Positions 7,718-54,778 of a stretch of 64,000 nt of DNA are shown in pieces. Origin of the DNA: Chloroflexota bacterium. Lineage in GTDB: Bacteria > Chloroflexota > Anaerolineae > UBA2200 > JACIWT01. The DNA lies in contig JACIWT010000001.1 in assembly GCA_014360825.1 (NCBI GenBank), positions 124,001-188,000 of the forward strand, read 5' to 3'. The notes under the pieces are model-generated. The model saw only the letters and a program-made list of their open reading frames with translations. It searched no databases and was not told the origin of the DNA. A program made the translations under genes and the position numbers. Within the stretch, counting starts at the first letter, position 1. Each line of letters opens with the position of its first letter.

Positions 7718-10700
7718 GCGTGGAGTTGGATATGCGGAGGATAGTCTGGCCGGGAATTGTCTTGGCGGCGTTATGCATTGCACTGGCGATGATCGTTTTT
7801 TTCGCGGAACCGGAAGGTATCGTTGCGGTCTCGGCAGACTGCGTTACTCCGGGACCAGGCGATGTCTATACCATCACATTCAGGAACGGCGTGTGTCCCA
7901 ACAGTGGCTACACGGGCACAGTGGATACTTATATTGCCGTTGATCTGTACAACCATGAGGGGGAGACAGTCCTCAACGTTGCTAATAATGGTGGCCGACG
8001 TGCCCTCCTGCGCTTTGATCTATCCCAGCATATTCCAGCAACGGCAGTCATCCTGGGCGCGCGGTTGACCCTGCGAGTTAACTATGCCACCGGTTCTGGC
8101 AACACTATTATAAAAAGTTATCAGATTTTGCGTCACTGGGAACCTCAGGAAGTGCGGTGGGAATATGCGTCGGAGGGGGTCCCTTGGGGAAGTCCAGGGT
8201 GCAATAGCTCTGAGGACCGATCGATGAGCCCCTCATTCTCTGTGAATGTAACCGCACCTGGTGAGTATACTTGGGATGTGACCGACATGGTCCAGTTATG
8301 GGTGAATGATCCAGCGGTCAATCACGGGGTCATCCTGATTGGGGAGGGTAGTGGTGGCAGTGTAACGTGGGCGTTCGCCAGCAGCGAGAGCGCATTGGAG
8401 ATTCGACCACGCTTGCAGGTTGTGTATCAGGGCCCACCGCCGCTGGCTACCCCGACGCCCACCTGTACACCTACTCGCACGCCGACGCCCCCTAACCCCG
8501 TGACTATCACGTCCCTGACTCGCACCGGCCTCAAAGTGCAGAGTTCTCCACCAGGGATTGCCCAGGCCTCCTCTCCGGTGCTCTTACTGTGGGAAGGGGA
8601 GGCCTACACAGCGAAGTTGAGTTTGTGGGCCTGCAACGTGGAACACGCACACCCGATCTACGTGAATGGCTACCCGTTGGATGGATACATCCTGCCGACT
8701 GGCCTGAACTGCGAGATCGAGGATAACACTGGCGGCCAGTATATGGAATTCACGCTGGAACGGGAGAATGGCCTCGATCCCAACATTGTTCTCATCAATG
8801 GGTGGAATACGATCAGTACCACCAACCAGGGAGACGTATACGATTCCTTTAAGGTAAGGGATCCTCGCATCCACGTGACGGGTAACATCACTGGGCCATG
8901 GGCTGTGGATATCGGACTTGGGACCGATGTCAATGGGATTCCATTGACTGGCACGGTGGTGGTTCCTGTGGGCTACACTGGGATGGAGCCGATACCACTG
9001 CTCTTGTGTCTTCAAGGGCGTGGAGCCGATCGTATGTCCATGCCCTATGGGAATGCGTACGTCATAGAGGCCAATAGAAGACGTTGGTTGCTGGCGGCAG
9101 TGGATATGCCAACTTATGGTTATTGGGTCTCGGGTTCCTTCCGATTTGCCGCGCGTTTCACACCGTCTTGGTTGGTTCAGGATGTGATTATGAATAGATT
9201 TCTACCGGAGATTCAAAGTCGTTTTAATGTGGACCCACGCCGTATCTATCTGGCCGGGTTTTCTGCTGGGGCCAATTCGGCCCTCGTCCTGGCTGGACGC
9301 TTCCCTGACGTGTTCGCTGGGGTGGTGGAACACTCTGGACCTCTCAATCTCACCGATTGGTATTGGCAACGCCCTGACTTGCAACTGAGCCTGCAATACG
9401 ATTTGGGCGGCTCCCCGAGCGAGCAGGGCTTTGAATACGAGCGCCGCTCGGCTTTTCATTACACCCGTAACTTGCAATACACACCCATTTCTATCACTCA
9501 TGGTCTCAGCGACACGACAGTGGCCTCCAGCCATGCCACCCATTTTTACAATGAGATGGCCGCCTACTACCCGCCCGAGGCCTATGATAAGCCCATCCCT
9601 TGGCTTTTTCCGGGCTCACACGAGCTCCCGCCCAATGCTTATCAGGACGATTTCGACTTCCTATCGCAGTATCAATTGCCCGCTGATCCAACGTCCTTGC
9701 GAATCAAAACGGACCAGAGCAAGACTTTCTGGTGGCTGGGCGTGCAGCAGGATCAAGAGATCTCGAAGCCACACTGGACTGAGGTGGACGCATCTTTCAA
9801 TGCGGCTAACAACAGCATTGACGTTGTTGTGCACGCCTACTATGGTAGCAGCCAGTATTCGGGTGCACTCAGTTTTGATCTAATGCGCATGGGTTTGAAC
9901 TCCGACGTTACCTACGCCGTCGAAGCGACGAACGAGGACACAGGCGAGTTCACTTTCAGCACAGCAGTGCCATCTGAAGGAGTGCTCACCATCGCGCACG
10001 GTGCAGCACGTTATCGCTATAGTATCTACCCTTATGATGGGGTCAGTGAGCCGCTGGAGTTACGATTGCAAGAAGGTCAGAACCAATATACAGGCACAGA
10101 TGACACCCATATCACTATCTACGAGCCCTGGGGCCACGGCACGGAACCATTGCGCGTGCGGTTCGACGACTTAACCAGCACGTTGATGCGCTTCGATCTC
10201 TCCCCCTTGTCCGAGAACGCTGTAATCAAGGAAGCGCGTCTTAGGCTATACTTGCAACAGAAAGAGCAGCCTACGACTTGGGTGAACATTGAGGCTTACG
10301 AGTTGCGGCGCAGTTGGTCGGAGGCCGAGGCTACGTGGGACCAGGCGCGGATTGGAGTGCCGTGGGAGGTTGCGGGTGCACGGGGCAGTAGTGACCGCGG
10401 GACAACCCCTGTGGGAAGATTAACGAATGTGAGGACAGTAGGCGAGTGGTATGGGATGAGCATCACCCAGCAGGTGCGGAACTGGGCCAATTATCCTGCC
10501 TCTAACTTCGGGCTGATTCTACGTGGTGCGGGCGGCGAACCACGCAACACCTGGGTACGGTTCTCTTGCTCTGAAGACGCCGATGCGAACATCCGCCCCA
10601 TTTTGGAAATCAAATATATGCTGGCCACACCCACGCCAACGGCGACTTACACCCCGACTACCACGCCCACGGTGACCAATACCCCGACAGTGACCCCGAC

Positions 10701-10794
10701 ACAGACGTGCACACCGACTCCCACTCGGGAAGCAACGGCCACGCCCACGATTGTAGTACACGAGACATATTTGCCCATCATCTTGAAGTGGTAG
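7714..10794 (+). CDS. Secreted DNRLRE-esterase-DNRLRE protein with TPT linker and LP C-terminus
   Basis: A 1026-residue protein; the ATG at 7714 overlaps the upstream stop. Order: signal/anchor helix (about 8-30); DNRLRE-type beta domain (about 45-240) with GYTGTVDTYI and RFDLS motifs; short TPT linker; a beta region (265-395); an alpha/beta-hydrolase of the PHB-depolymerase/feruloyl-esterase type (about 400-660) with nucleophile Ser517 in GFSAG, likely Asp in HGLSDT and His in PGSHELP. A second DNRLRE domain follows (about 785-970), then a TPT linker and a terminal ETYLPIILKW. Family knowledge: such hydrolases cleave esters, for example on polysaccharide side chains. It is tandem to a close paralog, so both likely act on the same surface or extracellular polymer. 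Substrate unknown. Confidence 0.8.
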   Translation: MSVELDMRRIVWPGIVLAALCIALAMIVFFAEPEGIVAVSADCVTPGPGDVYTITFRNGVCPNSGYTGTVDTYIAVDLYNHEGETVLNVANNGGRRALLRFDLSQHIPATAVILGARLTLRVNYATGSGNTIIKSYQILRHWEPQEVRWEYASEGVPWGSPGCNSSEDRSMSPSFSVNVTAPGEYTWDVTDMVQLWVNDPAVNHGVILIGEGSGGSVTWAFASSESALEIRPRLQVVYQGPPPLATPTPTCTPTRTPTPPNPVTITSLTRTGLKVQSSPPGIAQASSPVLLLWEGEAYTAKLSLWACNVEHAHPIYVNGYPLDGYILPTGLNCEIEDNTGGQYMEFTLERENGLDPNIVLINGWNTISTTNQGDVYDSFKVRDPRIHVTGNITGPWAVDIGLGTDVNGIPLTGTVVVPVGYTGMEPIPLLLCLQGRGADRMSMPYGNAYVIEANRRRWLLAAVDMPTYGYWVSGSFRFAARFTPSWLVQDVIMNRFLPEIQSRFNVDPRRIYLAGFSAGANSALVLAGRFPDVFAGVVEHSGPLNLTDWYWQRPDLQLSLQYDLGGSPSEQGFEYERRSAFHYTRNLQYTPISITHGLSDTTVASSHATHFYNEMAAYYPPEAYDKPIPWLFPGSHELPPNAYQDDFDFLSQYQLPADPTSLRIKTDQSKTFWWLGVQQDQEISKPHWTEVDASFNAANNSIDVVVHAYYGSSQYSGALSFDLMRMGLNSDVTYAVEATNEDTGEFTFSTAVPSEGVLTIAHGAARYRYSIYPYDGVSEPLELRLQEGQNQYTGTDDTHITIYEPWGHGTEPLRVRFDDLTSTLMRFDLSPLSENAVIKEARLRLYLQQKEQPTTWVNIEAYELRRSWSEAEATWDQARIGVPWEVAGARGSSDRGTTPVGRLTNVRTVGEWYGMSITQQVRNWANYPASNFGLILRGAGGEPRNTWVRFSCSEDADANIRPILEIKYMLATPTPTATYTPTTTPTVTNTPTVTPTQTCTPTPTREATATPTIVVHETYLPIILKW

Positions 10795-10831
10795 AAAAGG
10801 TTTAACGAAATTTTTGGACGAAGAGGAGCGA

Positions 10832-13800
10832 ATGCGGAAAACGTTAGGCGTATTGATGGTTGTAGCAGGTGGTATGATGGCATTGGTGGCTTTGTGGTTG
10901 GTCGGCTTGATGTCCGTTGAGACTATTGCCCAACCAGCCGAGGTCTGTGCAGCATCGAACCTCGGTGTTTACACCATCACATTCCAATATGGGGCGTGGC
11001 CCGACCCAGGATACACTGGTGCCCAGGACACGTATATTGATTTGACCCAGCCATGGGCCCACGACGGGATGTTTCCGCTCAAGGTGGATACCAAGCGCTG
11101 GTGTAAGGTGCTCATTCAGTTCGATATCTCGCAGTACATCCCGCCAGATGCGACGGTGCAAAGTGCAAGACTGACGGTTAAGCCGTATGTACCGGGTAGT
11201 CGGATGCGTGTGAATCTGTACCGGGTATTGCGCCCGTGGGTTGCTGCTGAAGCCACCTGGAATAGCCCGCTCTCCGGGGTTATGTGGCAGAGCGCTGGCT
11301 GCGATGGCCCGGACGACCGCGAGCAGGACCCTGCCAGCAGTCTCATTTTCGAGGCCAACGATTTCTACACTTTCGATGTGACAGCCATGGCCCAGGATTG
11401 GGTGCGAGAGTCATCCAGCAACCGCGGGGTGATCTTGATCGGAGAGAAAATCGCTGACGAGACCTCCTGGACTCTATTCTATTCCGAGTGGAGCGAGAGT
11501 GCGCTGCGCCCCAAGTTAGTGATCACCTACCAGGGATCGCCGCCACTGGCTACTCCTACGCCGACGCCTACCATCACACCTAGCCCGACGCCACCAAATG
11601 CCATCTCCATCACCTCTACGCAGAAGTGTCTATCTGTGGGCGGTTCGGGTGTGCTTTCCAATACCGAGACGGTGATCCTAATCTGGCAGGGGACTCCCTA
11701 TACAGCGAGGCTCTACCATCGTGCCTGTGCCGTGACGCCAGATGCTCGACGTCCCCAAAGTGTCTATGTGAACGGCAATTTCATCGGCACGATCACACCT
11801 TATTATGACTATCAGCGTCCTTGCACCTGTGACAGCGCGCCAACCAGTTACATTGACATCCCAGATGCGGCACAAGTATTGACAAGTGGGCTCAACACGG
11901 TGACCATCTACAATGATGGCTCGCCGGACAAGTCGTGGAGGCTGGGCAATTTTTACATCACAGCATCTGGAGAACTGACTACGGTCACACGGATTGATTT
12001 TTCCTTTCGCTCCAGTTACGATAACAGCATCCAGAATAGTGTGGTCGTCTTGCCCATAGGTTACGATGGTAGCCAGCCGTTGCCCCTCGTCTTCGTGGTG
12101 CAGGGTGGGCGGGGCAACCCAGGGATGCGTGATGAAATGCTCTACGGTGATGGTTACGTGATCTCGTGCAACGAGCGCGGTTGGATCTCTGCGGCGACGG
12201 ACTTGGGACCGCACCCGGGTCTGCCGCAACCTAACGAGGGAATGTACGTGGGCAGGTTAGAGGCGCAACATGATATCATTGACACAATCCGTGCTATCAC
12301 GGGCCAACTTGGTATTAATGTAGACCCGTCTCGTATTTATATGGTCGGATTCTCGACCGGGGCGTCTAAGGCACTTGTGACGGCGAGCAAATACCCCGAT
12401 GTGTTCGCGGCTGTCGTTGCTCACACCCCCCCGACCGATCTCCGGGCTTGGGCTGAGTATGGCAAGACACCACCCCCCACAGGGGGAGTTCCTCCTGCAC
12501 CCTGGGTAGAAGATAACATCGCACAAGACTTGGGTGATTATCCGCATCATGTGTTCCTATGGCAACGTTGTTCGCCCATTGCGATGGCCCGCAATGTCCA
12601 GTATATCCCGATTTCGATCACTCATTCGGTCTATGATACCGTCGTCCCACCTTCGCAATCAACTGATTATTGGGGCGCGGTGGCGGAATTCTTCGATCCG
12701 ACGACGTATCACAAATTCCTCACCCTGCATGACGCGCCCGGGCCGCATAGTGGCATGCCCAACGCGAACTACAACGATTTGGAATTCTTCTCTCAATATA
12801 CATTGCAGCCAGATCCCCGCACGATTCAGGTTCGTGTGGATGAAAGCAAGGACTATTACTGGCTGGGCATCCAACGCTTAGGGGACAATAACTGGACGGC
12901 CGCCGAATACGCTGCATTCGATCCTGAGATACGTACAATTACGATGGAAGTAAGTGCCGTCGCCGATATATTTCGCGTTGATGTAAACCTGGCGCGCATT
13001 GGTTTCGACACAGATGTGCCGTACACAGTAGATGACTATGACCCTCGGACAGGTGAGTTCAGCCGTAGCCACGTGATGCCGTCTGGGGGGCGGATTCAGT
13101 TCCTGGTACGGCGCAGCCAAGAGCCTTACACTTATGAGGGCCTCCGGCGCCAATTCGCCATCTACCCACAGTCGCAGGAGATGCCATTGCAGCAGACCAC
13201 TTTGCGGCAAGGACGCGAAGGCTATCTTGGAGTAAGGGACAGTTTCTTAGACGGACGGGATCAACCTTGGGCTCATGGCAGAGATCCTAAATTAAATCTG
13301 TATAGCGGGGGTACAGAAGAGCCGATTTTTTCCTTCGATTTGACTGGAATCCCATCGTCGTCGGTCATCAAGGGCGCGCAATTCCGATTTAGCACGGTCC
13401 CACGCACGGGTGACTACAGCGCTATTGATGTGCACTTCTACCGCCTACTGCGACCTTGGCGAGATAATGAGGCGACCTGGACGCAGGCGATGGAAGGTGT
13501 GGCTTGGGAAGTGCCTGGCGCGAAGGGGATGGGCGACCGTGCGTCTCAACCAGAGGTAACACTGCGCATTAACAACCCCCAGTATCGCTACAGTGTGAAT
13601 CTGACATCCTTGGCCCAGCATTGGGTGAATCACCCAGAGGAGAACTTCGGTTTCATTGCTGAAGGCAGTATATTTTACGGGGGCTCGCACAGTAGTTATG
13701 ACATCGCCTCCAGTGAATACGGCTCGAGCGATAATAACTACCGCCCTGAGTTGTGGATTGCCTATACGGATCCGACACCTACGTGCACGCCAACAGCAAC

Positions 13801-13933
13801 GTCCACGCCTACTTGTACGTTCACGCCTACGCCGACGGAGACGCCTACGAATACACCCACCCACACCGCAACAGCCACGCCGACGGCGACCGAAGTGGTC
13901 TATGTCATTTGGCTGCCCGTTCTTCTGAAATGA
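10832..13933 (+). CDS. Secreted DNRLRE-esterase-DNRLRE paralog with LP C-terminus
   Basis: A 1033-residue protein; the ATG at 10832 follows aagaggag, better than a TTG 18 bases upstream. It has the same architecture as its upstream neighbour: signal helix, DNRLRE (GYTGAQDTYI, about 45-235), TPT linker, beta region, hydrolase with nucleophile Ser508 in GFSTG, Asp in VYDTVV and His in GPHSGMP, second DNRLRE-like domain (GYLGVRDSFL), TPT linker and the terminal VYVIWLPVLLK. The two proteins align along their whole length but are well diverged, so this is an old duplication kept under selection. A feruloyl/acetyl-xylan-esterase-like role is a family-based guess. Confidence 0.8.
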   Translation: MRKTLGVLMVVAGGMMALVALWLVGLMSVETIAQPAEVCAASNLGVYTITFQYGAWPDPGYTGAQDTYIDLTQPWAHDGMFPLKVDTKRWCKVLIQFDISQYIPPDATVQSARLTVKPYVPGSRMRVNLYRVLRPWVAAEATWNSPLSGVMWQSAGCDGPDDREQDPASSLIFEANDFYTFDVTAMAQDWVRESSSNRGVILIGEKIADETSWTLFYSEWSESALRPKLVITYQGSPPLATPTPTPTITPSPTPPNAISITSTQKCLSVGGSGVLSNTETVILIWQGTPYTARLYHRACAVTPDARRPQSVYVNGNFIGTITPYYDYQRPCTCDSAPTSYIDIPDAAQVLTSGLNTVTIYNDGSPDKSWRLGNFYITASGELTTVTRIDFSFRSSYDNSIQNSVVVLPIGYDGSQPLPLVFVVQGGRGNPGMRDEMLYGDGYVISCNERGWISAATDLGPHPGLPQPNEGMYVGRLEAQHDIIDTIRAITGQLGINVDPSRIYMVGFSTGASKALVTASKYPDVFAAVVAHTPPTDLRAWAEYGKTPPPTGGVPPAPWVEDNIAQDLGDYPHHVFLWQRCSPIAMARNVQYIPISITHSVYDTVVPPSQSTDYWGAVAEFFDPTTYHKFLTLHDAPGPHSGMPNANYNDLEFFSQYTLQPDPRTIQVRVDESKDYYWLGIQRLGDNNWTAAEYAAFDPEIRTITMEVSAVADIFRVDVNLARIGFDTDVPYTVDDYDPRTGEFSRSHVMPSGGRIQFLVRRSQEPYTYEGLRRQFAIYPQSQEMPLQQTTLRQGREGYLGVRDSFLDGRDQPWAHGRDPKLNLYSGGTEEPIFSFDLTGIPSSSVIKGAQFRFSTVPRTGDYSAIDVHFYRLLRPWRDNEATWTQAMEGVAWEVPGAKGMGDRASQPEVTLRINNPQYRYSVNLTSLAQHWVNHPEENFGFIAEGSIFYGGSHSSYDIASSEYGSSDNNYRPELWIAYTDPTPTCTPTATSTPTCTFTPTPTETPTNTPTHTATATPTATEVVYVIWLPVLLK

Positions 13934-41883: not shown

Positions 41884-44800
41884 ATGCGTGTTGGGATAAA
41901 AGAGCGAAAGCAGATTGTGGCTGTGGTGCTGGCTGTCTTTGGTGTGATGCTTTTGGCTATGGTAATACCGGGGCCCGTCTTGGCCCGGGTGCCACCGGAA
42001 TTCGTACCGACGAACGGCATCTATATCCAGTACGACGATCCCTCTCATGGTCTTGACCCTGGCCTTTATCCAGTCATAGGTGGTTACAGGCGCTATAGTT
42101 GGAAAGACATTGAGACATCTAACAACTCCTTCAACTGGGATGGCATAGCATATTGGATCGGTCAAGAGCAGACCCACGGCAAGTATGTGGGCATCGGCTT
42201 CACTACTTACAACGAGCATGGCAATGTGGTGCCCGCGGGCCCCGGCAACGGCACCCAAGTTCCTGAGTGGTTGATCTCGATGTACCCTAGCGTTGCGCCT
42301 ATCAACACGCGGCGGCAAACTGACGAGACATATCGTGTCACCAATTACAAGGACACTAACTATCGCAACTATTACAGCCGCTTCATCAACGCCTTTGCCC
42401 AGTGGCTGGCGGATAACCCCAGCGTCCGCGCCCGCGTGGCCTGGGTGTCTATGGGCGTGGGCATGAGCGGCGAAACCCAGCCTAGTGCTCAACGGACCTC
42501 GGAATTGCCCGATTATCAGTTCTATCAGATCAACCTGGGCCTGACCTCAGCGGAATGGGTGGAATACGTGAACTGGTGCACCCAGACTTACCGCGACGCT
42601 TTCCTCAGTCGCGGCCTCAATATCCCGCTGTTCTTGGACATCGGGCCCACTTATATGGGGCCCTCGGAACGCTACCAGTTCTCGCAATACGCTGCAGATC
42701 GCGGGGTGGGCTTGCGACACAACGGCCTTATGGCCGACCACTGCTGCCCCATCAACTACCGGCTGATGCATTATTACGGCACTTACAGCACTACGGTGCC
42801 CATCGCTTGGGAAACTTATAGCAACTATGTTACCTGCTATTCTGAAATGTTATTTGCCACGTATATGGGCCTGTCTGCTCACGCCGATAACTTCGCCCTC
42901 ACCCGGGATATGATCCAGATACCCGCATACCGTGAGCCTCTGGAGTTCATGAAGCGCTATAGCGGGGTCACGATCCAGAATACTCCTAGCGTTTGGGCGG
43001 CACTGCGGGGGAACTGCACTGGCGGCGATCCCCTCAACTACGAATTCTGGCTGCGGCAGTTCGACTCGGCAGCCAATGGCACAACTGTCAAAGTCTGTGG
43101 TGAGTCAGAGCCGATATTGGATCCCTCCACCGGCTACAAATTTGACTTGCCCAACGGCACCTACACGGTGCAACTGCACTTTGCCGAATTGTATTACAGT
43201 GGTACTGGGGCCCGATATTTCAATATTGTGATTGAAGGCAATATAGTCCGGTCGAATCTCGATGTAGTAGCAGCCGCCGGAGGGTGGCGCAAGGCGTTGG
43301 TGTTGGATTTCCCCGGCATCGTTGTCACTGATGGCCAGTTGAACATTGATCTCATCAAGACTAGCGGTGACGATCCCTTCGTGAATGGCATCTACATCAG
43401 CGGCCCAGGCTATCAAAACCGGGTCAACTGTGGTTGGCAGTTCGACTACCGAGATCCCAGTGACAATATCTGGCATGGCGATCAGGAGTACCGCCCTGGC
43501 GCTTGGGGCCACCTGGGTGGCTACCCCTGGGTCTCCGGCGTTGAAATTGCTGGCACCGACATGGATCCGCTCTACCAGTCATGCCACGTGCGTGATGGTA
43601 CACTGGGTGTGGTGGCCGAAGGACGTTGGACGCGTCGCACCGACCAGGCCAGTGGCAACTCTTATATGCGCTTCGACATTGACAATGGCTATATGTATAA
43701 CCGCACCAATTTCACTACCGCCACGATCACTGTCACCTATTACGACGCGGGCACCGATCGCTGGCAGTTGCTCTACGATTCGCAGACCGATGCCAACAAG
43801 GCGGCCGTTCCAATGGGCAGCACTAACCCCTGGGTCCAGAAGACCAATTCACACCAGTGGAAGAAGGCTGTCTTCTACCTGGAGGATGCCCTTTTCGCGG
43901 GACGCCAGTATTCAGGTACTGATCCCGATTATGGTCCGTTTAGCATAGATTTCTCTATTTTCTGCAACAACGATGGTAACGAGTACATCCACTTCGTAGA
44001 AGTGTCAAAGGCGGGTGCGCCGACGCCGACTGCGACCATCAACGGGAGTGTGACGCTGGAACGAGGGACCAAGACGCCGCCGGACCCTTCGTTCTCCGTG
44101 CCGCTGACCGTTACCCTGCATACACCGGGCAACCCGACACCACTCTACACTTACAATCCCACCACCGACCAAAGCGGGAATTTCACTATCACTGACATTC
44201 CGCCGGGGTCCTATGACGTCCGCGTCAAGAACAGGCACACTCTACAGAATGTGTCCCGGTCCGATTGTCCGGTGACCCTTGTTGCTGGGGCCAATGCAGT
44301 CAATATGGGGACGTTATGGGAAGGTGATGCCAACGATGACAACCGTGTCAACTCCAGCGACTTCATCATCCTGCGCAACACCTACCTGAAGCAGCAAGGC
44401 GATCCGGGCTACGATGGCCGTGCTGACTTCAACGAAGACCAGCGCGTCAACTCGAGCGATTTCATTTTGCTGCGGAACCATTATCTTCAGGATGGCCCGC
44501 GGGTGGTGAATATGGGCGGGTGTCCTGGCTCGCTGGTTGTACAAAGCGCTACCACTCCCGTCTCGATCCAAAGCGACGGTACCATCACTTTCCTACCAAC
44601 AGAGACCACGGTAATCGCCGGGCAGGAGTTCGTTTTGGACATTTCAGTGGATACCGGTTCGCAGGATGCCGTTGCTGCCGATGTCTTTGTGGATTTCGAC
44701 CCCGCCTATCTGGAAGTAACGGGCATCGAGGATGGTTCTCCCCTGCAAGTCATTGTCAAGCAATATGATAACGAGGCAGGATCGCTCAAGATCGGCGCGG

Positions 44801-45042
44801 TTACCCTTGGCGAGCCAGCCAATGGTGGTTTTACAGTGGCAAGGCTCCATCTGCGCGCTCGGGCGCAGACTGCTGTGGATGGGACGGTCATTTCCTTCTC
44901 CCGTGATGAGCCCCGTCGAACGGTGGTCAAGAACGCGAGCGACGAAGATATCTTGGCCACTGTTGAGAGTGGCACGGTGCACGTGAACGCAGCCCCTTTG
45001 CAGTACCAACTATATGTTCCAATTATCTGCAAATGGCTTTAA
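41884..45042 (+). CDS. Secreted glycoside-hydrolase-like protein with malectin-like halves, dockerin and cohesin
   Basis: A 1052-residue protein. Signal peptide 1-35 ending near VLARV. Residues 40-370: a beta/alpha-barrel-like region (WVSMGVGMSGETQPS, IPLFLDIGP), possibly GH42-like. About 400-512: a malectin C-half (YTVQLHFAELYY, FVNGIYI); about 513-572: a malectin N-half (VNCGWQFDYRD, GTDMDPLYQS), in reversed order. About 573-715: a module with FDIDN (597) and EYIH (700-703), shared with the 50839 protein. About 718-805: carboxypeptidase-regulatory-like. About 812-875: dockerin type I with two calcium loops, each with Asp1, Asn3, Asp5, Asn9 and Asp12. About 890-1035: cohesin. Ends YQLYVPIICKWL. 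The catalytic residues of the barrel are not assigned. Confidence 0.75.
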   Translation: MRVGIKERKQIVAVVLAVFGVMLLAMVIPGPVLARVPPEFVPTNGIYIQYDDPSHGLDPGLYPVIGGYRRYSWKDIETSNNSFNWDGIAYWIGQEQTHGKYVGIGFTTYNEHGNVVPAGPGNGTQVPEWLISMYPSVAPINTRRQTDETYRVTNYKDTNYRNYYSRFINAFAQWLADNPSVRARVAWVSMGVGMSGETQPSAQRTSELPDYQFYQINLGLTSAEWVEYVNWCTQTYRDAFLSRGLNIPLFLDIGPTYMGPSERYQFSQYAADRGVGLRHNGLMADHCCPINYRLMHYYGTYSTTVPIAWETYSNYVTCYSEMLFATYMGLSAHADNFALTRDMIQIPAYREPLEFMKRYSGVTIQNTPSVWAALRGNCTGGDPLNYEFWLRQFDSAANGTTVKVCGESEPILDPSTGYKFDLPNGTYTVQLHFAELYYSGTGARYFNIVIEGNIVRSNLDVVAAAGGWRKALVLDFPGIVVTDGQLNIDLIKTSGDDPFVNGIYISGPGYQNRVNCGWQFDYRDPSDNIWHGDQEYRPGAWGHLGGYPWVSGVEIAGTDMDPLYQSCHVRDGTLGVVAEGRWTRRTDQASGNSYMRFDIDNGYMYNRTNFTTATITVTYYDAGTDRWQLLYDSQTDANKAAVPMGSTNPWVQKTNSHQWKKAVFYLEDALFAGRQYSGTDPDYGPFSIDFSIFCNNDGNEYIHFVEVSKAGAPTPTATINGSVTLERGTKTPPDPSFSVPLTVTLHTPGNPTPLYTYNPTTDQSGNFTITDIPPGSYDVRVKNRHTLQNVSRSDCPVTLVAGANAVNMGTLWEGDANDDNRVNSSDFIILRNTYLKQQGDPGYDGRADFNEDQRVNSSDFILLRNHYLQDGPRVVNMGGCPGSLVVQSATTPVSIQSDGTITFLPTETTVIAGQEFVLDISVDTGSQDAVAADVFVDFDPAYLEVTGIEDGSPLQVIVKQYDNEAGSLKIGAVTLGEPANGGFTVARLHLRARAQTAVDGTVISFSRDEPRRTVVKNASDEDILATVESGTVHVNAAPLQYQLYVPIICKWL

Positions 45043-45122
45043 GTCACCTGGTGAAGTAAAGTTTGGGACGCTCTCGCCAGGTTCCGCTATACCATTGCTG
45101 GCCTGCTGAGAGAGGACGAGTG

Positions 45123-47375
45123 ATGAGCAATCAATATGAACCCGCGGTGAATATCTCCGGCGAGCATCTACATCTGTCAGCCTTCGTGTTCGTCGCGGTG
45201 GTTTTCTTGGCATTGGTACTACTGATATGGCCGACCTCTTTTGGTTTGAGCGCTGCTACCGCCATGCAAATCAGCATTGACCCAGCAAACACGAGCGTCA
45301 ATGTCGGTGATGAGTTCGACCTGAACATCCGTATTGACGCCGGGGCAGAGGGTGTGGTGGCCACCGATGTTTACCTGAACTTCGATCCCGTTTTTCTAGA
45401 AGTGGTAGGGATCACCGACGGCACGCCACTGAGCGTCTTCACGAAGGTCTACAGCAATACTGTCGGCACCATCACCATCGGCGCGGGAACGCTCGGCGAT
45501 CCGGCATCCGGCACATTTGTGGTTGCTACGCTACGGATGCGGGCTAAGGCCGGGACGGGTGTGTCGCCAACCACCGTTGCCTTTTCGCTCACGGAGCCCC
45601 GTCGGACGGTGGTCAAAAACGCTGAAGACGTGAACATCCTGACGGCAGCCAACAACGGCCAGGTTGCCATCAGCGGCCCCACACCAGCTGGGCCCACTCC
45701 CACCACTACCTGCACTCCCACTCCAACAACGACCGTACCACCAGGGAAGCCAGCCCGTATCCTACTCCAGCCAGAAACGAGGAACGTTGCCGTTGGCGAC
45801 ACATTCGACTTCCAGATCCAGGTTCAGACTGGGGGCATCGGAGTGGTCGCCGTGGACGTGTATATGAATTTTGACCCGACGTATCTGGAGATCACTGGCA
45901 TAGACGATGGCACGCCGCTGAGTGTCTTCACCAAAGACTACAATAACACCGTCGGCACCATTACGATTGGCGCCGGGACCCTCGGCGATCCGGTCACAAC
46001 GGACTTCACTGTGGCCACGCTGCACCTCCGGGCTAAAGCCGGGACAGGTGGGGCGGCGACATGGGTGGTATTTTCGCTCGCTGAACCACGGAAGACAGTG
46101 GTGAAGGATGCTGGTGACGTGGACCGCCTGGGTGCGGCCACCGATGGCCAAGTCGTCATCAGTGGCCCTACGCCGACTGGCCCGACTCATACCCCAACGC
46201 GCACGGCCACAGCCACGGTTTCGCCGACGCATACCGTTACCCAGACGCCAACGCACACGGCCACCCCTACGGTTACGCAGACGCCACCTACCCCGCCGAC
46301 GGTGGTGGCTTTCCAATATGGCGTCAGTCCCAGTGCCGACTACGTGGGGGTGACGGATACAACTGTGGATTCCTATCCCCCCACATGGCGGTGTACAGAT
46401 ATCCGGCTGGTTGTGGATTACGCTCGCCAGAGGCGTCCGCTACTCAGGTTTGACATCAGTTCGATCCCTAGGGGCTCCTATGTCGTCTCCGCTACCCTCG
46501 AACTGGTGCAAAACGACCACATCAGAAATATGGATTGGTCCCTGGATGTAGCAGTATATCGGGTGCTCAAACCCTGGGACTGGGTTTACTGCCAAGTGTC
46601 GTGGAATCAAGCCAGGCCTGACCTGCCCTGGGAAGTACCTGGCTGCGACGGCCCTTCGGACCGGGCCAGCGTCCCCGAAGATGTCAAGACCCTTCAACCC
46701 CTGCCAGCACGCGAGAAGCGAGTCGTGGGGTGGTCGGTCACTAACATGGTGCGCGACTGGGTAGCCAACCCGGCCACGAACCAGGGGATGATCTTGATCG
46801 GGACCGGTAACACACAGGAGTTCGAGTTCGCTTCGTCGGATTACTATTACGGCGACTATGCCGAGCGGCGACCCAAACTGGTGGTGAGTTACTATGAGCC
46901 CACGCCGACGCCTACGGCCACCCTCAGCCCCACGCCCACTCGCACGAGCACGGCCACGCCCACGCCGACGAATACACCACCGCCCGGTGCAATTATGGGC
47001 ATGGTGTGGGAGGACCTGAACGGCAATGGGATCATGGACCCCGAGGAGGCCAACCGGGGATTGGCTGGCGCGATCATTCATCTCTGGAACAGCGCCAAGA
47101 CGCAAGAACTCCGCCCAGCCTACACCACCCAGTCCGATGGGCGTTTCGCTTTCGTGGATCTGGCACCAAGTAACTACGTGGTCACGGAGGACAACCCACC
47201 CGGCTATACCTCTACTACAAGTGATGAGGTGGGTGTGGTTGTCATCTCCGGTACGGCGACCACCGGGGTGAACTTTGGCAACTGGCGTGCGGGTACTACC
47301 CCAACGTTCACACCCACACCCTCACCGCGTTACCGTGTTCGCCTTCCCATCATGGTCAAGAGCATCTGGCGATAA
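45123..47375 (+). CDS. Secreted scaffold-like protein with two cohesins, DNRLRE and SdrD-like domains
   Basis: A 750-residue protein; ATG at 45123 after gagaggacgag. Signal/anchor helix about 18-45. Two cohesin-like domains at about 45-180 and 210-345, with LNFDPVFLEVVGI and MNFDPTYLEITGI, each followed by GTITIGAGTLGDP and PR(R/K)TVVK. A TPT linker, then DNRLRE (about 394-590: VAFQYGVSP, RFDISSIPRGS, WNQARPDLPWEVPG), another TPT linker, an SdrD-B-like domain (about 622-720: GMVWEDLNGNGIMDPEE), and a final linker ending in RYRVRLPIMVKSIWR. Cohesins bind dockerins; the only dockerin in the window is in the upstream gene, so this reads as a scaffold for that protein or for distant partners. Confidence 0.8.
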   Translation: MSNQYEPAVNISGEHLHLSAFVFVAVVFLALVLLIWPTSFGLSAATAMQISIDPANTSVNVGDEFDLNIRIDAGAEGVVATDVYLNFDPVFLEVVGITDGTPLSVFTKVYSNTVGTITIGAGTLGDPASGTFVVATLRMRAKAGTGVSPTTVAFSLTEPRRTVVKNAEDVNILTAANNGQVAISGPTPAGPTPTTTCTPTPTTTVPPGKPARILLQPETRNVAVGDTFDFQIQVQTGGIGVVAVDVYMNFDPTYLEITGIDDGTPLSVFTKDYNNTVGTITIGAGTLGDPVTTDFTVATLHLRAKAGTGGAATWVVFSLAEPRKTVVKDAGDVDRLGAATDGQVVISGPTPTGPTHTPTRTATATVSPTHTVTQTPTHTATPTVTQTPPTPPTVVAFQYGVSPSADYVGVTDTTVDSYPPTWRCTDIRLVVDYARQRRPLLRFDISSIPRGSYVVSATLELVQNDHIRNMDWSLDVAVYRVLKPWDWVYCQVSWNQARPDLPWEVPGCDGPSDRASVPEDVKTLQPLPAREKRVVGWSVTNMVRDWVANPATNQGMILIGTGNTQEFEFASSDYYYGDYAERRPKLVVSYYEPTPTPTATLSPTPTRTSTATPTPTNTPPPGAIMGMVWEDLNGNGIMDPEEANRGLAGAIIHLWNSAKTQELRPAYTTQSDGRFAFVDLAPSNYVVTEDNPPGYTSTTSDEVGVVVISGTATTGVNFGNWRAGTTPTFTPTPSPRYRVRLPIMVKSIWR

Positions 47376-47579
47376 CTCCACAACTCCGTCTGGGAAAGCG
47401 CCGTTGTGCAACATATCAACTGGCTTTGGCAGCGGTCACGGTGGGCGCTGGACTAAAGAAAGAATGTGTTTGGAGTAAGATGGGGAAGAAACCATACAAG
47501 TTTGTCTGGCGTCCTTTTCCCCTCCAACTCTACCTGTGCGCCGAGAACACGGTATTACCAAGAGAGCAGGGGTGAGTAT

Positions 47580-50372
47580 ATGCGCGTACATGACCTCAAT
47601 CATAAGATCTTCTGGATCATGTTGCTGTTCCTCGGTATTTGCCTGTTGCTTTGGCCCTCCTCTGATCGAGGAGCCCAGGCTTCCCCACCCCAGGCTCCTA
47701 TGCCGCAACCTACCTCTATTAGTTTCCAGTACGGGCTTTATCCCAATCCAGGTTACACGGGTGTGGGTGATACCTATATACGTTCTAATCGTTGGACCAA
47801 TGCTCATAATGAAGCGGTGCTCTGGGTGGGCGAGGATGTGATCAAATCCCGCTCCTTAATCCGATTCGAGTTGTCTCCTTATATTCCGACGAACGCAGTG
47901 GTCACATCGGCTACCTTGCATATGGTCGCGCACCTTTGTGAGCCAACGCCTTGTGCGCCACTGACCGTGGACGCTTTCCGCGTGCTGCGCCCGTGGGTGG
48001 TCACTGAAGTCACGTGGTCCTGGCCTGCCGTCAACCAGACTTGGGAGGTTAACGGCTGCGATGGTCCTACTGACCGCGAGATGACCACTAGCGGATGGGG
48101 TACGGTGTGTTGTAGTGGCGGAAACTATTTGGATATCCCGATCACTGCGCTTGTGCAGGAGTGGGTAACGCATCCAGCCACCAATTATGGTTTGATCCTC
48201 ATTCGACGGGCCCCTGCGACGGTGAGTTATAGCCTGCGCAGCAGCGAGACCGGCGCGGATGGTCCGCGCTTAGACGTTACGTATTATGTCCCTACTCCCA
48301 CGGTCACGCCCACACACACGCGCACTGCTACACCGACCCCCACCGCGACCAGCACGCCAAGCACTGGCGATGTGCGCGGGATGGTATGGAATGATGTGAA
48401 CGCAAATGGCATTTTGGACAACGGGGAGGTTGGGCTGGCGGGAGCCAAGCTGACCTTGACCGATGTCAGTGGGGTTCAAGTACCTGGCTATCCACCTGTG
48501 TGGACAGGCCCGGACGGCCAGTACGCTTTTATGGGCCTTTCGCAGGGCGTCTATAGACTGACCAGAGAGAACCCGCCCGGCTATACCTCTACTACTGTGG
48601 ATACTGTCGTATTCCCGCTGGCGGCTGGTTCAACGGTGGTCATCAACTTTGGCGCTTACACCGTGCCCACCATTACACCAACAGCGACCCAGACGGGCAC
48701 GCCTACGCGCACACTGACCCCGTCACCAACGAGCACCACCGGTCCATCGCCCACTGCTACCCGTACATCTACCCCTACGGCAACGGTGCCCACCACCCCG
48801 ACGCCTACCGCCACGACCCCGCCCGGGAAACCGGTGCGCATTGCGATAGATCCGGCCGCCACCACGCGCAGCGTGGGCGAAGAATTTGATTTGGCGATAC
48901 GGGTGGATGCGGGCACGACGGGCATTGTGGCTGCAGACGTCTACCTGGACTTCGACCCTGCCTATTTGGAAGTGGTGGGGATCACCGATGGCACGCCGCT
49001 CAGCGTACTCGTTAAGATGTACGATAACGCTGCCGGAACCATCAACATCGGCGCGGGAACACTCGGAAGCCCGGCCTCGGGGACATTTGTAATTGCTACG
49101 GTGCGAATGCGAGCCAAAGCGGCGACGGGAATATCCCCCACGGTGGTTGCTTTCTCGTTTGTGCCACCACGACAAACGGTCGTCAAAGATGAAGGCGATG
49201 TAGATCGCCTCGGCGGCTATACCAATGGCGAGGTGACTATCCTGGGCCCCACGCCTACATGGGAAGCCTCGCCGACGATGACAAACACGCCTGTTGCAAC
49301 TGGCACTCCAACTCATACACCCACCTACACGCCGGGTCCCTCACCGACACCCACCGCTACCCCACGCGGCACGTTCAACGACCCGGTGCCTGTGTACTGC
49401 GGTGGCGTCTATCGCGATACCAATGCCGGCCGACCGGGTGTCATAAGTCAATATAATTGCAAAGAGGGGTACGAGTTTGGTCCCGAGGTGGTGTATACGA
49501 TTACCATTGGCGACTGGGCACCGACGGTCACCATAGGAGCCGTGCTCACGGGGTTCACCGAGGCTCTGGATGTTTTCATTCTCGGCAGCGCGGACCCACA
49601 GGATTGCCTGGCCTGGGGGACTGAAGCAGTGGCCAACGTTACACCGGGCGTATACTACATTATTGTGGACGGACTCCTGCCGGAGTCTATAGGTAACTAC
49701 ACTCTATCTATTTACTGCTACCCGATGCCAGGATACACGCCGACCCCTACATCTACTCCAAGTCCCTCGCCCACTCACACCAGCGGCCCATCACCCACTG
49801 CCACACAGACCCATACCCCTGGTCCCTCTCCCACCGCTACCGCCACGCGGACACCCGGACCCAGTTACATCTACTTGCCGGTGATCAAAAAGGCGCCAAT
49901 TGAGATCCGCATCGATTGTGGCAGCACCGCGCCTTATGTGGACGTCCTGGGTGCTCGCTGGAGCGCAGATTACGCCTACGTTGACGGTGAACATTGGGTC
50001 GCTAGGATTCCCATTCCTGGCACGGATGATGACCCACTCTATCAGACTCAGAGGTTTTGGGAGTCCGCACAGCCCTTTGACGCCTACCGCATCCCGAACT
50101 TGCCTCCGGGCACGTATCGGGTGGAACTCCGGTTTGCAGAACTGTACTACAAGGCGATCGGATATCGGGTATTTGACGTCTATGTCGAGGGGAATTTGGT
50201 TGGAGACAATGTAGACCCCACTGCCTGGGGCATCTCTGCCACAGGTGAATTTTACGGTGCCTTCTCGATTGGCTGGGAGGGGTACATCGGCGATGGCACA
50301 CTGACTATCCGGTTTGACCCTCGGGCAGGTGCGCCTATCCTAAACGCTATCTATGTGGTCAAACTTGACTGA
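47580..50372 (+). CDS. Secreted multidomain protein: DNRLRE, SdrD-like, cohesin, PPC-like, malectin
   Basis: A 930-residue protein; ATG at 47580 after caggggtgag. Signal helix near 10-28. DNRLRE (about 52-240: FQYGLYPNPGYTGVGDTYI), TPT linker, SdrD-B-like (about 265-355: GMVWNDVNANGILDNGE), TPT linker, one cohesin-like domain (about 415-550: LDFDPAYLEVVGITDGTPLS), TPT linker, a pre-peptidase-C-like beta domain (about 605-715), and TPT linker with SYIYLPVIKK at about 762-770. A complete malectin-type carbohydrate-binding domain closes it (about 775-930: IDCGST, DDPLYQTQRF, YRVELRFAELYY, NAIYVVKL). Here the LP element is internal rather than terminal. Probable role: carbohydrate-binding scaffold on the cell surface. 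Confidence 0.8.
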   Translation: MRVHDLNHKIFWIMLLFLGICLLLWPSSDRGAQASPPQAPMPQPTSISFQYGLYPNPGYTGVGDTYIRSNRWTNAHNEAVLWVGEDVIKSRSLIRFELSPYIPTNAVVTSATLHMVAHLCEPTPCAPLTVDAFRVLRPWVVTEVTWSWPAVNQTWEVNGCDGPTDREMTTSGWGTVCCSGGNYLDIPITALVQEWVTHPATNYGLILIRRAPATVSYSLRSSETGADGPRLDVTYYVPTPTVTPTHTRTATPTPTATSTPSTGDVRGMVWNDVNANGILDNGEVGLAGAKLTLTDVSGVQVPGYPPVWTGPDGQYAFMGLSQGVYRLTRENPPGYTSTTVDTVVFPLAAGSTVVINFGAYTVPTITPTATQTGTPTRTLTPSPTSTTGPSPTATRTSTPTATVPTTPTPTATTPPGKPVRIAIDPAATTRSVGEEFDLAIRVDAGTTGIVAADVYLDFDPAYLEVVGITDGTPLSVLVKMYDNAAGTINIGAGTLGSPASGTFVIATVRMRAKAATGISPTVVAFSFVPPRQTVVKDEGDVDRLGGYTNGEVTILGPTPTWEASPTMTNTPVATGTPTHTPTYTPGPSPTPTATPRGTFNDPVPVYCGGVYRDTNAGRPGVISQYNCKEGYEFGPEVVYTITIGDWAPTVTIGAVLTGFTEALDVFILGSADPQDCLAWGTEAVANVTPGVYYIIVDGLLPESIGNYTLSIYCYPMPGYTPTPTSTPSPSPTHTSGPSPTATQTHTPGPSPTATATRTPGPSYIYLPVIKKAPIEIRIDCGSTAPYVDVLGARWSADYAYVDGEHWVARIPIPGTDDDPLYQTQRFWESAQPFDAYRIPNLPPGTYRVELRFAELYYKAIGYRVFDVYVEGNLVGDNVDPTAWGISATGEFYGAFSIGWEGYIGDGTLTIRFDPRAGAPILNAIYVVKLD

Positions 50373-50838: not shown

Positions 50839-53800
50839 TTGCGTAACCCCTCCGGCTTGTCCAGAACAAGAACCGGCAGCCTCGCCCAGCTGATTTTCGC
50901 CCTGATATTTCTCATCGTGGTGGCTTTAGCCTTCCCCCAGTTGCTGCCCTCTGGGGTGGGCGCAACGGCAGATGTTACTCCCGAGGCCCAGATCGTCCCT
51001 CCTGGCTACGGGCCCCTGATGCCCCGTATTTTCGTCATGACCGACTGGTGGAACGGCGATTGGGGCAACCCTGACTACCTGTACGAATATGACGACTGGT
51101 TCGGGCACAATGTGGTGGTAGGGCACCCGGAGTGGGGGCCGGTGGGCGGCTGGTGGGTCTTTCGCTGGAATGAACTCAATCCCCAGAAGGGGGTGTACGA
51201 CTGGAGCCTCATTGACGATTACATCCGCACAGCCCAAAAGTACCAGACTGCCCCGTTTCCCAATGGCAGTACCATGCCCAAGCCGGTGGGCATCTCGGTG
51301 ATGGTCTATGAATTCGGTGACATGGGCACTTACTGGGGCGATTTATATATCCCCAAGTGGGTGATAGACGAGGCGGGGGGCTGGTCTGCAGTCGCAGATT
51401 GCTTTGACCCCGATGGCCCCACCGGGTCTTGCAAGCCTTTTTGCACACCCAATTTCCGCAACCCGACCTGGCGGTACTATTTTGATCAATTCGTTATGGC
51501 AATGGGGCAGCACCTCGATAACAACCCAGAATTCTTTAACTTGGCTTTCGTCATCATTTCCACTGGCATCAGCGGCGAGGGGTATCAAAGACTCAGTTTC
51601 GGCGGGTGTTCCTACGGGTCCAATGACGGTTTTTTTGACGAGTGGAGCAGCCACCTGATAGATGTTTATCACGCTGCCTTTCCCAACACGGTGGTTTTCA
51701 CGCAGCCCATCGTGCACGGCTTGCACGGGGCGGCGTCGCGTGCTGCTTCCCTCCCTGGGAACCGCATCGGGGTGAAGAGCAACGGCCTGGAGGTGGACCA
51801 CGGCGCGGCACAAATCCTCTGGGACGGGGTGCTCGTGGGTGGCATTACTGGCTTCGCTGATCTGTACCACGAACGAATCCCCATCGGTTACGAGCCGGCG
51901 CACGGGAATGATGTGGCAGGCTCCTACTGGTTCATGATGGATGCCCTCTCGCATCACCCGGACATGATGGACATCCAGTACATGAATTTGATCTACTCGG
52001 ATCAGGTCTCACGGGATACGGGGTTCCCCCTCCTCGATTTCGCCCGTGCCCACATGGGCCGTACGATCACCGATACCGAAGACGTGTGGATTGTCCTGCG
52101 AACCACTTCCAAGACCGATACCACTTGGACGGGGTACGATGGCAAGGTGGTCACCTACGGGCCACAGAAGACCGACTATACCTATTGGCTCTATCGTCCC
52201 GACGGCATCCCGCAGAACCAGACGGTAGCGCTCATCGGCTCGACGATGTCGGCCATCCCCTCTCCGGCCCGGCAGCACGCCTACGGAGCGCACAGTGTGC
52301 GTCGCACCAACCAGGCCACCAATGACATTTATATGTCCTTTGATATTGACAACCGCTGGCGTTACAGTGGGGCACGCCCGCGCTCGGCTGGAGGGGTAGC
52401 CAGTTACGATCTCACGCTCACTTTCTTGAATATGGGCAGCGACACTCTGTCGCTTCAATACACGGACATAAATGGAGTGGTGGTCAACCGCACTATCACC
52501 AAAGGCTCTGTGCTGGGTCCGGTCAACCAATGGGTGGACTACACCTGGCACCTGGAGGATGCTTATTTCAACAATGCTCTCCCGGGGAATACGGACTTTC
52601 GCATCTCCTGTAATGCCGACGGGGACGAATATATCCACCGCATTATCCTGCGCGCCTCGGGTATCCCTGGGCCCACGCCGGTGCCAACTAAGACCTACCC
52701 ACCCACTCGCACGCCGACTCGTACTACCACGCCGCCGACCTCCACGCCAACACGGACGAAGACCATTACCCCGGGTGGCCCAACGCCCACTCGCACTGCC
52801 GGGCCCACCGCGACGCCTACCCGCACCCTGTCGCCAACACCGCTGCCCCCAGGATATGTCAGCATCACCTTCCGCCAGGGTCTCACAGGCTATACTGGGG
52901 CCAGTGACACCCATTTAGTGAGGGAAGGCCCTACCCTCAACTACTGTCCGGTGGAATTGCTGCAGGTGGAGCAGACGGGGTCATACAAAGCGCTTTTCCG
53001 TTTCGACGTCTCTTCTATCCCTGCCGGGTCCCTCATCGCCGACGCCCGGCTGCGGCTGTATGCGGTGGGATGGAGTGGCTCGAACATCACCTTCGGCGCC
53101 CATTACATTACTCGCACGGTGGAGGTATGTCAGGCTACCTGGAATGAGGCGCGCCTCGGGGAGCCCTGGGGTGCGCCGGGGGCGAGCGATTACAACACCG
53201 ATATCCGGCAACAACCGGAGGCTACCGTCACGACCAATGACATCCGCCGCTGGTACGAGATAGACCTGACGCAAGTGGTTCGCGGTTGGGTGAGCGGTTC
53301 TTTGCCCAACAACGGGGTTCTCCTACAAGCGACAGGGGGGAGCACCTGGAGCAGTTTCTATTTTGCGAGTTCGGAGTATTCGAACGCTGATTTGCGGCCG
53401 CAGTTGGTGGTTACCTATCTCCCGCGGACGCCGACGCCCAGTCTTACTCCTATTTTCTCGCCGACACCGACTCGGACCAGCACGGTAACTCGCACTCCCA
53501 CCCGGACGAGGACTCCCACGGTGACGCCGACGCCATCGCTCACACTTACGCCCACCATCACGCCGACCGGGACACAGATACCGCCGACGCTCACGCGCAC
53601 ACCGACCATCACGCCGACACCCACCGGGCCCACGCGCACGGCGACCGCAACGACAACCCGGACCGCCTCACCCACGGCTACGCCAACGCGAACTATCTCG
53701 CCGACGGCTACCCCTACTGTGGCTGGGACGCCGGTCGACCGCATTGATCGGCTCACGTCGCGGGTCAACGTCCTGGAAGCGCTGTTACGACAGATTCTCG

Positions 53801-53856
53801 ACATCTTGACCCGGGCCAGTTCACTGCGAGGGTTGCTGAGGGCTCTACAAGAGTAG
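50839..53856 (+). CDS. Secreted TIM-barrel-like protein with DNRLRE, TPT linkers and C-terminal coiled coil
   Basis: A 1005-residue protein; the TTG start is supported by GGAGG 6 bases upstream. Signal helix about 14-36. Residues 60-480: a beta/alpha-barrel-like region ([41 protein letters not shown]) resembling glycoside-hydrolase-like (GH42/DUF4832 type) proteins and the 41884 protein. About 485-605: the shared FDIDN (501)/EYIH (597-600) module. TPT linker; DNRLRE (about 675-865); a very long TPT linker (about 865-962). Last 40 residues (966-1005): a heptad-repeat coiled coil starting [18 protein letters not shown]. The LP element of its neighbours is missing. Probably a polysaccharide-active enzyme that oligomerises by its tail. 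Confidence 0.75.
53430..53735 (+). repeat. Low-complexity TPT-encoding repeat
   Basis: About 300 bases of degenerate triplet-pair repeats (acg/acc/act with ccg/ccc and occasional cgc) encode the long Thr/Pro/Arg-rich linker before the coiled coil of the 50839 protein. Similar shorter tracts occur in eight other genes of the window. The antisense reading frames across it (Gly/Val-rich) are artefacts. Such tracts are prone to length change between strains. Confidence 0.8.
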
Positions 53857-53911: not shown

Positions 53912-54778
53912 ATGAAACGCAGATCGGGTTGTGTATTGGTGATGACATTGCTGATTGGTGTAGGCATTGGACTCATCGTGGCCCAGACCCACCTTTTGCC
54001 GCCCCTGCTCCCGCAAATCACAAGCAAATCCTCCGCGCCCGTATATGCTCTCGATACATCGCGGACGTTGGAGAGCCGCTACGTCATTACTGCGCCTGTG
54101 CTGGACGGTAACTTGGCGGATTGGCCGACCGTGCCCTCCATCACGATGGATGCTGCCTCGTGCGATTACGTGGCGGGCACAATCGGCGGTGTGAACGATT
54201 GCTCGGCCTCGGTGCGCAGTGTGTGGGATGACACCAATGTCTACTTTGGCATTGATGTGACGGACGATGTGCTCAAGTCCGACGACCCCTCCTATATCTG
54301 GCGCGATGACTCGGTGGAAATCGGCCTGGACGGTGCCCGTGACCGCGTGTTCTGGAACCCAGACGACCACCAGTACGCAGTGGCCAGCGATGGGCGCACG
54401 TTCTACCTGGGCGCGCCCACGACCGAGTTGTCGGCGGCGGTGCAGGTGCGGTCCGGTGGCTACATTGTCGAGATGGCTGTCCCGCTCAATCGCCTGGTGC
54501 TCAGCGGGCAGGTGATCTCGGGCACAGTGTGTGGCTTCACTGTGGGACTCCGCGACGATGACGATAATGGCACCTGGGATGGCTATCTGGTTTGGGCAGG
54601 GACGACGACCTTTGGCATCGCGGAGAACTTCGGGGAGTTGCGTTTTGTGGGTCAACCTCCGCCGGTATGTGACGTGCGGTTGGATCAGTTGGAGGCCCGG
54701 TTGGCCGACCTGGAGCGGAAGATCCAGCAGTTGCTCGATATCCTGAGCGAGTTCGGCAGTATTATCCCTCCGCGCTGA
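53912..54778 (+). CDS. Secreted CBM9-like protein with C-terminal coiled coil
   Basis: A 288-residue protein; ATG after gggaggagg. Signal helix about 8-28. Residues 60-245: a CBM9/DOMON-like carbohydrate-binding domain (APVLDGNLADWPTVP, VWDDTNVYFGIDVTDD, DDSVEIGLDG, GYIVEMAVPLNRL, VGLRDDDDNGTWDGY). A Cys-containing hinge precedes a 34-residue coiled coil (255-288) starting VRLDQLEARLADLERKIQ. That tail matches the one on the upstream protein position for position, so the two may pair. It is followed by a terminator. Confidence 0.8.
   Translation: MKRRSGCVLVMTLLIGVGIGLIVAQTHLLPPLLPQITSKSSAPVYALDTSRTLESRYVITAPVLDGNLADWPTVPSITMDAASCDYVAGTIGGVNDCSASVRSVWDDTNVYFGIDVTDDVLKSDDPSYIWRDDSVEIGLDGARDRVFWNPDDHQYAVASDGRTFYLGAPTTELSAAVQVRSGGYIVEMAVPLNRLVLSGQVISGTVCGFTVGLRDDDDNGTWDGYLVWAGTTTFGIAENFGELRFVGQPPPVCDVRLDQLEARLADLERKIQQLLDILSEFGSIIPPR

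Follow-up and report, generated by a model that had tools for sequence, protein, structure and literature searches.

Three successive genes in a Chloroflexota genome encode four cohesins, and the first of them also encodes a two-loop dockerin directly ahead of its own cohesin. Our favoured explanation, held tentatively and with a little less than even confidence, is a small secreted cohesin–dockerin assembly that is not a cellulosome, in which the first protein would plug into the products of the other two genes and could be extended through its own cohesin.

Domain architecture of the locus

In the window, the whole stretch of 64,000 nucleotides that was analysed, the open reading frames of the three genes (W1, W2 and W3) follow one another at positions 41884–45042, 45063–47375 and 47466–50372, all on the + strand. 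The likely true starts of W2 and W3 are the ATG codons at 45123 and 47580, each with a purine-rich stretch ahead of it as judged by eye. The three products are secreted proteins, and inspection by eye shows a signal-peptide-like N-terminus in each.

In W1 (41884–45042, +), the signal peptide is followed by a putative GH42-like barrel (42076–43107), which matches PF02449 at the cut-off, has no meaningful PDB match by sequence, and is paralogous to the N-terminal region of the downstream gene W4. A malectin domain (43135–43362, E = 4.5e-18) comes next, and the C-terminal part runs in the order X module, dockerin, cohesin (X-Doc-Coh). The X-module-like domain (44086–44298), which resembles CarboxypepD_reg, lies directly before the dockerin and was aligned by profile with the X module of the CipA X-Doc structures (3kcp/2b59). 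The dockerin (44323–44481) contains two F-hand loops (44326–44361 and 44425–44460) with symmetric recognition residues, SS/SS, and is adjoined by the cohesin W1-Coh (44569–44997), for which Pfam, an AlphaFold2 model and structural alignment agree. The chain ends in the tail LYVPIICKWL.

W2 (45123–47375, +, longest reading frame from 45063) encodes a small scaffoldin-like chain with two cohesins, W2-1 (45255–45683) and W2-2 (45747–46172), a DNRLRE/CBM96-like domain and SdrD_B. W3 (47580–50372, +, longest reading frame from 47466) combines DNRLRE/CBM96, SdrD_B, one cohesin (48828–49253) and malectin. Two neighbours on the same strand are of uncertain membership: W4 (50839–53856), with a barrel and middle region related to W1 and a CBM96 domain, in which the domain search detected neither cohesin nor dockerin, and a fifth gene (53912–54778) for a secreted CBM9-like protein. 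Upstream of W1–W3 is a cluster for polysaccharide biosynthesis that includes a flippase-like protein and several glycosyltransferases. At the edge of this cluster, two adjoining large secreted esterase-like proteins (7666–13933) match Esterase/Peptidase_S9 models and carry CBM96/Disaggr_repeat domains. A short tail, YLPxxxK/R, ends most of these secreted chains (for example LYVPIICKWL, RLPIMVKSIWR and YLPIIRK); it was located at 45009–45039 and 47330–47372 of the window, at 7320–7344 of locus L018, and in loci L133, L134 and L098, and is possibly a C-terminal processing or sorting signal.

All three genes score above the Pfam cut-off for Cohesin (PF00963): W2 at 68.8 bits over two stretches, W3 at 39.7 bits, and W1 at 24.4 bits, just above the cut-off of 24.1. 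Dockerin_1 (PF00404) matches W1 with 39.4 bits against a cut-off of 22.9. In a profile built from the four window cohesins each member matches with an E-value of about 1e-75, as a self-match. Both dockerin loops are intact and display the pattern Asp1, Asn3, Asp5, Asn9, Asp12 that had been read from the sequence, as D815-x-N817-x-D819...N823..D826 in loop 1 and D848-x-N850-x-D852...N856..D859 in loop 2. The C-terminus of W1 was modelled by AlphaFold2 from an alignment of 20 tandems, giving a pLDDT of 87.5 and a pTM of 0.80; with a single sequence the pLDDT was 35. The W1-Coh model aligns with solved cohesins at Z 12–16.8, including the Archaeoglobus fulgidus cohesin 2xdh at Z 15.7, and with the fibrillar adhesin domain CLIPPER (9ifr) at Z 11.3. 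The fold comparison covers W1-Coh, and the cohesins of W2 and W3 were assigned by sequence. The domain assignments are far beyond chance, and the sequence-only reading of four cohesins over three successive genes, with dockerin and cohesin on one chain in the first, is borne out, as is the cohesin fold of W1-Coh.

The same reading had called the dockerin type I, a label that stands in part. The best solved match of the W1 X-Doc segment alone is the type I dockerin of Clostridium thermocellum CelS (E = 3.3e-8), and the X module ahead of it is an arrangement of type II X-Doc dyads. The first part of the C-terminal model matches such dyads by Foldseek, including 4u3s_B, and an X-Doc profile matches the C. 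thermocellum CipA X-Doc 3kcp over both X and Doc (E = 1.9e-14), as well as 2b59 and 4wi0.

Two classes in one genome and a tandem in several phyla

Profile searches of the genome (assembly of 2.9 Mb, 98% complete) identified 15 cohesins and six dockerins in two sequence classes, A and B; the Pfam models alone, with 13 and three, undercount both. In the cohesin tree the four from the window (class A) fall in one clade (100/97), and a highly supported split separates them from the remaining eleven (class B). The window is the sole class-A locus, and only one of the six dockerins belongs to class A. Every dockerin chain in this genome (6/6) also bears a cohesin, compared with 11 of 50 in six other genomes of the order, from a sister family (p = 4e-4). 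The cellulase families searched were GH9 and GH48. GH9 was not found, its positive control being detected, and the GH48 search gave no match in the genome and likewise none for its controls. Cohesins and dockerins thus occur here with no GH9 among the families searched, the non-cellulosomal pattern, and in place of a scaffoldin recruiting many dockerin enzymes there are six dockerins, of which one is class A, and each shares its chain with a cohesin. The locus lies outside the classical cellulosome organisms, as had been proposed.

Two groups of class-B genes are found on C8 and C35, contigs of the bin other than that of the window. Tetranucleotide correlation with the window is lower for C35 than for C8, so C35 may be a small binning error. 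On C35, seven successive chains on the − strand (L019:1–14427) each carry a class-B cohesin, and three of the seven also have a C-terminal dockerin, in two cases behind a beta-helix domain. At L017:6613–11223, a chain with SpoIID, Amidase_2, dockerin and cohesin appears to be a peptidoglycan-active enzyme bearing both plug and socket.

A class-B operon (L018:2497–13439; L133–L137) is present here and conserved in all but one of the six other genomes of the order. In it, a chain of about 1,600–1,780 residues with X-Doc-Coh at its end precedes a chain that joins a cohesin to three LysM domains; within the stretch read, four of the six genomes with the operon have a further cohesin gene after these. 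LysM binds peptidoglycan, and the LysM-bearing cohesin is therefore a plausible wall anchor. Since it adjoins an X-Doc-Coh chain in a conserved operon, an anchoring role for cohesins is plausible in this lineage. No anchor is visible at the class-A locus of the window.

The four window cohesins retrieved no relative when used to scan GTDB genome contigs; the X-Doc-Coh alignment, a query that contains both domains and so is biased toward tandems, retrieved 40 loci. Dockerin then cohesin on one chain was present in 19 of these, in Chloroflexota (Anaerolineae, Caldilineae, Chloroploca and Oscillochloris), Thiotrichaceae (including Ca. Thiomargarita nelsonii) and one Bacteroidia genome. The gap between the two domains is 18–27 residues in 18 of the 19 tandems, and many of the loci have an additional cohesin gene alongside. 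The cargo ahead of the tandem varies, comprising subtilase, M23 and C39-like peptidases, LVIVD repeats and carboxypeptidase-regulatory repeats. In Bacteroidota the gene after a dockerin chain encodes a cohesin, and the T9SS sorting tail was present in both loci checked (L088 and L110). In viral contigs the scan gave one dockerin-bearing locus (L120:3629–4159, an IMG/VR contig with a class-A-like dockerin reading frame), which may be host DNA. A plasmid search gave matches mainly to the malectin region, and a PHROGs search gave nothing useful.

The co-occurrence test, which is less subject to this query bias, covered 400 genomes of the phylum by profile search. Class-A cohesins were found in only 17 and class-A dockerins in 13, with 11 genomes common to both; after removal of the seed genera, six genomes had both against about 0.2 expected (p about 5e-9, a value that ignores kinship). 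The two repeats of class-A dockerins agree at recognition positions 10–11 in 53 of 84 cases, where 18.9 would be expected, a level of agreement reached in 0 of 2000 shuffles, although the sequences are related and the p value is not strict; at position 7 there is no excess agreement. Symmetry at positions 10–11 is as predicted if either repeat binds the same cohesin, and suggests dual-mode binding of the dockerin, to which recent repeat conversion could contribute as an alternative source of symmetry. Across the four window cohesins, the putative binding sheet is not more conserved than the back sheet (p = 0.24). The pTM of 0.80 exceeds the value of about 0.4 that free domains would be expected to give and points to a defined placement of X-Doc relative to Coh in the predicted structure, a single-chain model that reads alike for contact in cis and in trans. 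Genome co-occurrence, the repeat symmetry and this predicted placement lend indirect support to pairing of the W1 dockerin with the window cohesins.

Explanations of the locus

In the assembly that we favour, W2, with two cohesins and a CBM96-like domain, and W3, with a cohesin, a CBM96-like domain and malectin, would act as carbohydrate-binding hubs. W1, with its GH42-like and malectin regions, would plug into their cohesins through its calcium-dependent dockerin, and W1-Coh, being of the same local family, could receive the dockerin of a second W1 molecule and so lengthen the chain, as an A–B building block. The outcome would be branched or linear assemblies. We infer that the W1 dockerin binds the cohesins of the locus, that it does so in trans, and that what results is a chain or a hub, sited on the cell surface or on a polysaccharide; the tandem arrangement probably links surface proteins together. 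The W1-Coh fold and X-Doc homology, class co-occurrence, the recurring tandem, repeat symmetry, the single clade of window cohesins, the pTM of 0.80 and the class-B LysM operon all speak for an assembly. Against it stand the divergence of W1-Coh, which barely passes the Pfam cut-off, the mostly separate lineage of dockerin-adjacent cohesins, the sheet conservation (p = 0.24), and the missing class-A anchor. In most other loci the dockerin-adjacent cohesin forms its own lineage, 25–48% identical to neighbouring cohesins, which hints at a different job. Within the window W1-Coh stands furthest from the rest, sharing 46% identity with the other three, which share 62% among themselves; it nonetheless groups with the W2 and W3 cohesins and not with those that adjoin a dockerin elsewhere (its closest match beyond the window reaches 31%), and this clustering favours a shared specificity in the window.

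The W1 dockerin might alternatively fold back on the cohesin of its own chain, so that the C-terminal unit caps itself; this unit would then function as a stalk or stabiliser, or as a switch that calcium loss or competing cohesins would open. This closure is doubtful but deserves serious consideration, given the short linker conserved in 18 of 19 tandems, a model that sets the two domains in a defined position (pTM 0.80) and the persistence of the tandem across phyla. AlphaFold was given one chain only, however, which favours closure, and self-capping leaves unexplained both the class co-occurrence and the separate cohesin-only neighbour genes (W2, W3 and those of L080, L089, L092 and L098). 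The separate lineages of dockerin-adjacent cohesins in most loci, together with the outlying position of W1-Coh among the four, are what one would expect if the W1 dockerin bound W2 and W3 and W1-Coh, in the manner of adaptor scaffoldins, recruited another partner such as a class-B dockerin from the same genome or a dockerin of another cell. We regard this division of labour as rather unlikely, because W1-Coh clusters with W2 and W3 rather than with other dockerin-adjacent cohesins (31% at best outside the window), and the genome has no second class-A dockerin.

The weak Pfam score of W1-Coh and the similar fold of CLIPPER (9ifr, Z 11.3) would also fit cohesin-like domains that are general beta-sandwich spacers or adhesion domains, with the dockerin as a calcium-stabilised linker; class co-occurrence, the symmetry of the dockerin repeats at recognition positions and the LysM-bearing cohesins adjoining dockerin chains make this improbable. 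A true cellulosome degrading the plant cell wall, which the resemblance of W2 to a two-cohesin scaffoldin with a carbohydrate-binding domain and the GH42-like region of W1 might bring to mind, is scarcely credible with one class-A dockerin, six dockerins overall and no GH9 found where its control was detected. The classical cellulosome was rejected on these grounds, too few dockerins and no GH9. A broader and more speculative idea, which we consider unlikely, is that X-Doc-Coh would be a horizontally spread, self-complementary cassette with plug and socket in fixed register, by which diverse cargo (GH42-like/malectin, subtilase, M23, C39-like) polymerises head to tail on the cell surface, with LysM- or T9SS-bearing cohesins as the starting anchor.

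Relation to known cohesin–dockerin systems

Cohesins and dockerins outside cellulosomes have long been catalogued, and the assemblies they form are largely untested. Peer et al. (2009, cited in PMC9012536) reportedly described non-cellulosomal cohesin–dockerin proteins. Such proteins are documented, including archaeal pairs that bind and, in ANME archaea, chains that combine one dockerin with as many as five cohesins (PMC9012536), and a pair from Archaeoglobus fulgidus has been used (PMC9705933). In scaffoldins, cohesins and a dockerin on one polypeptide are standard (PMC3413522). A dockerin and a cohesin on one chain are thus not new in themselves (PMC3413522, PMC9012536). In the open-access literature, with most subscription papers outside its scope, we found no paper treating Anaerolineae cohesin–dockerin proteins in depth. 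With one class-A dockerin and four cohesins, the whole interaction set of the window is testable with five small recombinant domains, and the conserved X-Doc-Coh tandem poses a sharp question between closure in cis, a polymer in trans and an adaptor. If it polymerises, this would be a new principle for building surface polymers, and protein engineering would gain a small, orthogonal building block.

The ANME and A. fulgidus systems resemble the present one in having both modules without a known cellulosome, and in chains that bear dockerin plus cohesin. Two points set the present system apart: X-Doc-Coh forms a fixed tandem that has a short linker and occurs in several phyla, and two classes share one genome in which every dockerin chain has a cohesin. 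The type II X-Doc dyads of C. thermocellum CipA and Acetivibrio ScaA likewise place an X module directly before the dockerin, the type II likeness being one of sequence and fold match and not of binding; the W1 dockerin alone is closest to type I CelS, and in the CipA fragment of known structure (3kcp, 4fl4) X-Doc comes after the cohesin, whereas in W1 the cohesin comes after the dockerin. Adaptor and primary scaffoldins of A. cellulolyticus and R. flavefaciens also combine cohesins and a dockerin on one polypeptide (PMC3413522), but belong to large cellulosomes with many enzyme dockerins, in contrast to the one dockerin and four cohesins seen here. In Clostridium perfringens glycoside hydrolases (NagJ GH84, GH33), as in W1, an enzyme chain bears a cohesin-like module; among solved cohesins NagJ is closest in sequence, and 2vo8 and 2w1n are among the top fold matches of W1-Coh, although identity over the aligned cohesin is about 15–19%.
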